This document shows positions 37,554 to 38,675 of a stretch of DNA of 51,697 nt, in pieces. Origin of the DNA: Acidimicrobiia bacterium. GTDB taxonomy: Bacteria > Actinomycetota > Acidimicrobiia > Spongiisociales > Spongiisociaceae. The DNA lies in the NCBI GenBank assembly GCA_011523635.1, contig WTGI01000046.1:1-51697 (forward strand), read 5' to 3'. Made by a program: the position numbers and the translations under genes. Every line of letters starts with the position of its first letter. Position 1 is the first letter of the stretch. The notes under the pieces were generated by a model. That model saw nothing but the letters and a program-made list of their open reading frames with translations, did not search any database and had not been told where the DNA came from.

Positions 37554-38675
37554 CTAGTCCAGGGCGTCCACCAGACTCTGGAACTTGCTGGCAGAGAAGC
37601 GGCTTGTAGCCTGCTCCACCCGGTTGCCGTGTTTGTCGACCAGCATCACGTGGGACGTGTACGAGTGAGGACCCTTGTAGTGTCGCCATACGGCATTTGA
37701 GCTGTCCCAGAGGTTGGTGAAGGTGAGCCGGTACGTGCTCACGAACTCCCTGGCCTTGCCCAGATTGTTCCATGTCTGGGGGTTGATGCCCACCACGGTG
37801 ACCTTATCGGCATTCTCTCGAGCGAACCGCTCGACCTCGGGGGCGTGCCCCCGGCAAGTGGGTCACCACTCGGCCCAGAACCAGAACATGACCGCCTTGT
37901 CGCCGGTGAACAGCGACCGGAGGTTCACGGTGTCGCCGGTGGACACGTCGGTCAGGTCGGTATCCGGGACATCGGCGCTGATCTCGACCGGTCCGGACGC
38001 GGCCGCCTCCTCCTGCTTGAGCAATGCCCGGTGGAGGAAGGTGGCCATCTCGCCCCGTTTGACGGCCTGGCCGGGGCAGTAACGGAGCGGATCGGTACCG
38101 CACCCGGCGGTGACGCCGGCCGCGAACAGGGCGTCGATGTCGGCTCCGTGCGTGCGGCCCACGTCCACGTCGGCGAACCCGGCCGACGACTCGGCGGGTT
38201 CGAGATCGAAGGCGCGGACCAGGAAGGAGGCCATTTGGGCCCGGTTGACGGTATCGTCCGGGCAGTAGCGGAGGGGACCGGTAGCGCATCCCCTGGTTAT
38301 CTCCCGGGCGGCGAGTTCCTCCGCGTAGGGCGACCACCACTCGGCGGCGTCTACGTCCGCGAACCGGGAGGTTCCGGTGGTGGTGACCTCGCCGCCGAGC
38401 GCCCGGACCAGCCAGACCGCCATCACCCACCGCTCCACCGGGACGTCGGGACAGAAGCCGTCCTCACAGAGGGTGTCCTCGAACAGGCCCCTCTCCGCGA
38501 GGGCGTTGATGGCAGGTTCGTGCCAGTCGCCCTCGTCCACGTCGGGGAAGCCTCCGGCGGCACCGGTGGCGGCCGGCGCCGGAGCGGTCGCGGCGACCAC
38601 CAGCGCGAGCGCAACCAGCCCCACCAGGGCGGGCCGCAGCCGCCGGAGGGACGCTGAACGCTCGGATGCCGTCAC
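37554..38675 (-). CDS. Candidate selenoprotein: SLH repeats fused to a TlpA/DsbE-like thioredoxin domain, Sec at the active site
   Basis: Read through one in-frame TGA (37863-37865), this is a 373-residue protein from a GTG start (GGGGAG five bases upstream). Residues 1-38 are a signal peptide. Residues ~40-225 are three S-layer-homology repeats (FPDVDEGDWHEPAINAL, then two with ...LRYCP). Residues ~235-373 are a thioredoxin domain close to the MPT53/DsbE and TlpA group. The TGA is codon 271 in FWAEW-TGA-PTCRGH, where relatives have WCPxC, so the redox centre would be U271-x-x-C274. Downstream codons stay in frame for 102 residues and keep the fold (VVGINPQTW, FTNLWDSS, HVMLVDKHGN). The usual cis-Pro is Thr340. 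A 6-bp hairpin starts nine bases after the TGA. It would be an exported, wall-associated oxidoreductase. Alternatives are a nonsense mutation or a sequencing error. The second UGA-Cys case in this window argues against both. Confidence 0.8.
37838..37853 (-). promoter_or_regulatory. Candidate SECIS hairpin of the SLH-thioredoxin gene
   Basis: Nine nt after the TGA, CGGGGG-CACG-CCCCCG can form a 6-bp stem with a tetraloop; opening the top pair gives a loop starting with G. Bacterial SECIS elements lie just downstream of the Sec UGA with the loop about 15-20 nt away, as here. The loop does not carry the GGUC seen in the other candidate, so support is moderate. Confidence 0.5.

Follow-up and report, generated by a model that had tools for sequence, protein, structure and literature searches.

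A putative wall-anchored selenoprotein that joins S-layer-homology repeats to a thioredoxin domain in an Acidimicrobiia genome

INTRODUCTION

Mycobacterial DsbE and DsbF, the closest characterized relatives of the thioredoxin domain analyzed here, have been described as oxidants, and thioredoxins of the Etrx/ResA type are fed by the CcdA pathway. Anchoring through S-layer-homology (SLH) repeats needs a CsaB-type pyruvyl transferase. Among selenoproteins, the available catalogue lists UxxC proteins of the thiol-disulfide isomerase-like (cd02966) and redoxin (PF08534) types and contains no SLH form (PMC13188914, Table 1, 2026).

We analyzed a 51,697-nucleotide stretch of Acidimicrobiia DNA (the window), contig C32 in a draft genome of 3.15 Mb (91 contigs, 97% complete). 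A reading made from the sequence alone had proposed an SLH-anchored selenoprotein of a kind it did not know to be described. The literature searched contained no description of an SLH selenoprotein, and the single paper in it that covers both selenoproteins and Acidimicrobiia is, judged by title, not relevant. The wall-anchored form appears to be undescribed so far and the fusion is absent from the catalogue, but the novelty is narrower than first implied, since UxxC TlpA-like selenoproteins are already catalogued; the selenium redox type is known.

RESULTS

Reading frame and architecture of the gene

The minus-strand frame at 37554-38675 comprises 374 codons including the stop, and its sole internal stop is the TGA at 37863-37865, read here as U. 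This TGA is codon 271 and lies exactly at the first Cys position of the WCPTC thioredoxin motif, giving MFWFWAEW-U-PTCRGHAPEVERFAR. As the sequence-only reading had expected, standard ORF calling breaks the gene into two pieces, of 270 and 80 aa. The Pfam Redoxin/AhpC-TSA match (residues 234 to 354, E value of 3.5e-14) spans the TGA, with the SLH repeats upstream of it, and the 102 residues 3' of the TGA, which had been taken for intact thioredoxin fold, are under purifying selection, with dN/dS values of 0.29 to 0.54 after the TGA and 0.31 to 0.63 before it, so that both parts are constrained alike. The features of the gene are as follows.

37554..38675, minus strand: SLH-Sec-thioredoxin gene, GTG start, TAG stop, 373 residues with Sec271 (ORF reading, Pfam, homologues)
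38568..38675, minus strand: predicted signal peptide region, about residues 1-36, ending APAPAATGA (by eye; hydrophobic N terminus kept in homologues)
38013..38549, minus strand: three SLH-type repeats with a conserved Cys pair in each, about residues 43-221 (Pfam SLH in 12 of 12 members; structure match to 3pyw and 6bt4)
37557..37976, minus strand: thioredoxin/redoxin domain, residues 234-373, pLDDT about 95 (Pfam, AlphaFold, profile search, Foldseek)
37863..37865, minus strand: in-frame TGA, Sec271, first residue of the U-P-T-C active site (frame and homologue columns)
37854..37856, minus strand: Cys274, resolving residue of UPTC (sequence; invariant in aligned members)
37838..37853, minus strand: hairpin SL1, nt 13-28 counted from the T of the TGA, GC-rich, variable register (RNA folding)
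37818..37834, minus strand: hairpin SL2, nt 32-48, UCGAGC-GGUUC-GCUCGA, predicted SECIS element (folding, conservation, codon use, covariation)
37653..37655, minus strand: Ser341 at the thioredoxin cis-proline position (alignments, profile search)

In all 12 aligned members, a hydrophobic N terminus is followed by three SLH repeats, each of them with a Cys pair, and then by a short linker that leads into the Sec domain; throughout the genus and family, the order of signal peptide, three SLH repeats, and Sec-thioredoxin is kept. At the TRAE position the repeats of the window protein read VERW, NRAQ, and KRGE, the first of them (VERW) without a canonical TRAE-like motif. The AlphaFold model (m912f15e109e7) reaches a pLDDT of about 95 in the thioredoxin domain and about 55 to 90 in the SLH part, while its pTM of 0.54 makes the relative placement of the domains unreliable; it shows a thioredoxin fold, with a strand at 261-266 and a helix at 272-287, in which UxxC sits at the start of helix 1. 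Foldseek matched the thioredoxin domain to DsbE/MPT53, DsbF, and ResA and the SLH part to Bacillus SLH trimers, and a profile search agreed for the thioredoxin part. The union of SLH repeats and thioredoxin in one protein, which had been proposed at the outset, held up, as a conserved fusion whose model combines a DsbF-like fold with an SLH trimer. NCBIfam returned no family for an SLH-Sec-thioredoxin above the cut-off.

The gene stands alone between divergent neighbors, so no operon points to a partner, and a search for an operon partner found none. Synteny is kept in near genomes, where the SDR, NYN, and glutamine amidotransferase neighbors, where found, are 84 to 99% identical. The selenoprotein, at 76 to 85% identity, evolves faster than these neighbors, as is common for surface proteins. 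The genome carries one PF04230 pyruvyl-transferase-family gene (80 bits), a family that also covers transferases other than CsaB.

Proposed activity and the cis-proline position

We give a probability of roughly 0.87 to the overall explanation that the product is an exported, wall-attached selenoprotein doing disulfide exchange. SelB, guided by the mRNA hairpin SL2, would insert selenocysteine at UGA 271, a step that the sequence evidence makes almost certain, the case being about as good as sequence data alone can provide. After export, the three SLH repeats would tether the protein to a polymer of the cell wall, and a surface location with SLH anchoring is quite likely. The DsbE/DsbF-like domain would then act on surface or secreted proteins, carrying out thiol/selenol-disulfide exchange through Sec271 and Cys274, a chemistry that the fold and motif make probable by analogy to DsbE and DsbF. 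The most likely role would be that of a reductase or repair enzyme receiving electrons from the membrane protein CcdA. We lean to reduction because the genome has one CcdA gene and a search of it found no VKOR, but the choice between CcdA-fed reduction and oxidation is close to even: the oxidant character of the DsbE/DsbF relatives argues against a purely reductive role. A general disulfide reductase would also rarely have Ser in place of the cis-Pro, a point against the overall explanation. That the Cys pairs of its own SLH repeats serve as substrates is speculation.

The residue aligned with the cis-proline of the TlpA/DsbE/DsbF-like family is Ser341, one residue away from the Thr340 originally assigned to that position. 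Ser occupies it in all 12 SLH members aligned, and Pro is found there in the order-level relatives (f7) and in L055. The likeness of fold to TlpA/DsbE/DsbF stands, while Ser341 weakens the case for counting the protein as a strict member of the canonical family.

It is conceivable that the protein is instead a redoxin-like surface peroxidase, or a selenoenzyme repairing peroxide damage or methionine sulfoxide, and not a disulfide oxidoreductase. Redoxin and AhpC-TSA are indeed its top Pfam scores, Sec often serves peroxide chemistry, and the change from cis-Pro to Ser recalls peroxiredoxins, which also have no Pro there (PMC2757866). However, the active site is UPTC, a UxxC at the thioredoxin position, with no sign of the TxxU motif of Sec peroxiredoxins, and the top matches in both sequence and fold are DsbF, DsbE, and ResA; we regard the peroxidase reading as unlikely. 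It is more doubtful still that the SLH branch forms a new class of wall-tethered selenoenzyme, in which Sec271 together with Ser at the cis-Pro position performs another chemistry at the surface (peroxide reduction or metal binding), with all paralogues read through one conserved SECIS by a lineage-specific SelB.

A metal or Fe-S center bound through Sec271/Cys274, instead of or besides disulfide exchange, is highly improbable. The Ser that is invariant in the 12 SLH members, where order-level relatives have Pro, would fit it, given that cis-Pro was proposed to keep metals off active-site thiolates (PMC2757866, citing Su 2007), but no other metal ligands are evident, and an extracytoplasmic location disfavors Fe-S clusters.

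Selenocysteine machinery and distribution of homologues

A profile search of the genome found selA (429 bits, above the cut-off). selB starts inside the end of selA and was identified by its GTPase start VVGTGGHVDHGKSTL together with its position. The tRNA-Sec gene (selC, 77 bits) has the anticodon TCA, and selD (379 bits; L013, G000:C90:35467-36396) has one in-frame TGA of its own, at GGGUASK, making SelD itself a selenoprotein in this genome; by eye, a comparable GC-rich hairpin lies at a similar distance after that TGA. The Sec machinery that the sequence-only reading had suggested looking for is therefore all present. SelD with Sec at the GGGUASK position is a standard selenoprotein, which makes it very probable that UGA is translated as Sec in this genome.

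Across 99 related genomes, a search recovered domain copies with exactly one internal TGA from members of the genus, from the family, and from a second family in the order; the five closest homologues, from the genus, are 77 to 85% identical to the window protein. An independent collection also held metagenome-assembled genomes titled Acidimicrobiia with the same gene. Each of the roughly 35 close members read, paralogues and independent assemblies included, has its TGA in that same column. The genome itself has three further UxxC members, of the SLH type on C35, of the lipoprotein type on C29, and a distant one on C64.

At the class level, 286 of 395 genomes gave a domain-profile match, and most of the strong matches among those listed carry one TGA. 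Cys at the Sec position, which the sequence-only reading had suggested looking for in homologues, was read as TGC in nine, all more distant. Four selA-negative genomes of 93 to 97% completeness (G041, G068, G072, and G080) carry Cys forms, all of a distant subfamily. There are two exceptions: G001 (96% complete) has TGA genes with no selA found, and G087 has selA and a Cys form among its listed matches. Draft gaps and paralogues could explain both. Two class-level matches have one TGA and one TAA inside (G110:C27:118183-118596 and G287:C55:27684-28106) and may be decayed copies or alignments running on past the stop.

The homologues read outside family f1 look like lipoproteins with Thr/Pro/Ala-rich linkers, and in the tree the SLH forms cluster within f1, with at least two label changes. 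In G009, G010, and G013, a lipoprotein form stands close to, or immediately ahead of, an SLH form. At L057, L058, and L059, the lipoprotein-type Sec-thioredoxin shares its strand with the SLH-type one that it adjoins or precedes, which hints that the two function as a pair. Paired adjacent Sec-TlpA lipoprotein genes also occur in other families of the class (L109, L104/L126, L108/L127, L110, L112, and L128). Other surface architectures of the same selenoprotein were seen in L055:2665-4986 (G013) and L064 (G010), where RCC1-like repeat sequence (DHSCGLRxDGSxxCWG) precedes the Sec-thioredoxin domain; L055 has SLH repeats as well.

A conserved hairpin after the UGA

Two hairpins follow the TGA, SL1 (nt 13 to 28) and SL2 (nt 32 to 48; 17 nt long, 28 nt after the TGA). 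Bacterial SECIS elements are usually poorly conserved; nearly all stem-loop positions of SL2 (consensus UCGAGC[AG]GUU[C/U]GCUCGA) are fixed in 35 sequences. The published bacterial SECIS model has a loop of 3 to 9 nt, a stem of 4 to 16 bp, a G in the first two loop positions followed by G/U, a distance of 16 to 37 nt from the UGA, and an energy of at most -7.5 (PMC13188914), and SL2 agrees with it (5-nt loop GGUUC, 6 bp, 34 nt from the UGA, -9.4 kcal/mol). The GC-rich hairpin that had been noted nine nt after the TGA does exist, as SL1, but SL2 is the better SECIS candidate: SL1 varies in register and sequence, a fixed structure pairs in only 63% of cells, and in the window its apical loop, CACG, is only 15 nt from the TGA.

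Codon use bears the same mark. Codon +14 is GCT in 36 of 36 members, whereas sample genes from this genome use GCT for 5.9% of their Ala codons, and codon +15 is CGA in 22 of 36 (1.9% of Arg codons in the same sample). Synonymous identity is 1.00 at codons +10, +11, +12, and +14, and one member replaces Phe by Leu through TTA, a codon almost unused here, with the GUU loop retained. None of 300 synonymous recodings of the window folded SL2 as well. In distant members the stem changes in pairs, from CG to UA and from AU to GC, with a covariation score reached by 0 of 500 shuffles, and SL2, which TGA members in the class set possess, is missing in all nine Cys homologues read. Codon use, the recoding test, the paired changes, and the loss in Cys homologues show that selection acts on the SL2 RNA and not only on the protein. 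RNAalifold detected no double-sided covariation in the close set, because SL2 is nearly invariant there; adding distant members supplied the covariation. The folding of the whole region against synonymous recoding was only moderately unusual in the window (z of -1.0), the signal sitting in SL2.

The distant UxxC branch L081-L084 mostly has no SL2 and carries, 16 nt beyond the TGA, an SL1 hairpin with the loop AGUU[A/G]. The SECIS may have shifted its position from one branch to another, and SL1 is possibly a helper, or the element of that branch (loop AGUUA, 16 nt). Scanning the genome with the SECIS covariance model gave no new selenoprotein and recovered three close family members and the known distant one (low score). 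A weak match at G000:C68:8223-8279 (L139) falls, by eye, in a Cys-type TlpA-like thioredoxin frame, probably reflecting protein-level similarity.

According to these observations, it is very remote that the TGA is a true stop, leaving an SLH protein with a dead thioredoxin remnant through decay, truncation, or regulated readthrough without Sec. TGA is a stop in table 11 and the gene caller gives two ORFs, but the TGA recurs in the same column of close homologues and paralogues, the SECIS-like hairpin is lost only in Cys homologues, purifying selection continues after the TGA, and the Sec machinery is complete; no close homologue read has a TAA, a TAG, or a frameshift at the site, so that the gene decay that would have refuted the sequence-only reading was not seen. 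A sequencing or assembly error at 37863-37865, conceivable for a draft in 91 contigs, is negligible, with the same TGA in about 10 independent genomes and several paralogues.

DISCUSSION

The locus adds an architecture that is apparently undescribed, in which a selenoprotein is joined to an S-layer-type wall anchor. Of the Acidimicrobiia genomes sampled, a large share contain TGA-encoded TlpA-like selenoproteins, each of which gene callers split in two. The 17-nt hairpin common to paralogues and to different families of the class forms an unusually clean natural SECIS series, and the Cys homologues without it open the recognition rules of SelB to direct testing. A further question that follows is why selenium should be invested in a redox protein outside the cell.

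In comparison with known systems, the cd02966/PF08534 selenoproteins of the Sargasso Sea and GOS sets share the thioredoxin fold, Sec as the first residue of UxxC, and a hairpin right after the UGA (PMC13188914; PMC1088965). Judged by the catalogue description, the window protein is set apart by its SLH anchor and by one near-invariant SECIS shared by paralogues; its sets lie in Acidimicrobiia, and its SLH branch has Ser at the cis-Pro position. Among proteins of solved structure, M. tuberculosis DsbF (3ios) is the best PDB match (profile E value of 2.9e-27, TM to target of 0.87), followed by DsbE/MPT53 (1lu4; 9.2e-25 and 0.82). Both are secreted and share the FWAPWCPTC active-site context, but they have Cys in place of Sec, keep the Pro, and have no SLH repeats. 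The predicted three-repeat fold resembles the SLH trimers of Bacillus anthracis Sap and SpaA (3pyw, 6bt4, and 7sv3; TM to target of 0.81 to 0.84), whereas each repeat of the window protein has a Cys pair and its SLH unit lies on the N-terminal side of a redox domain. Pneumococcal Etrx1/Etrx2 and Bacillus ResA, as surface-exposed TlpA-like thioredoxins, offer a model for CcdA-fed reduction; they use a lipid or membrane anchor and CxxC, in contrast to SLH and UxxC here.
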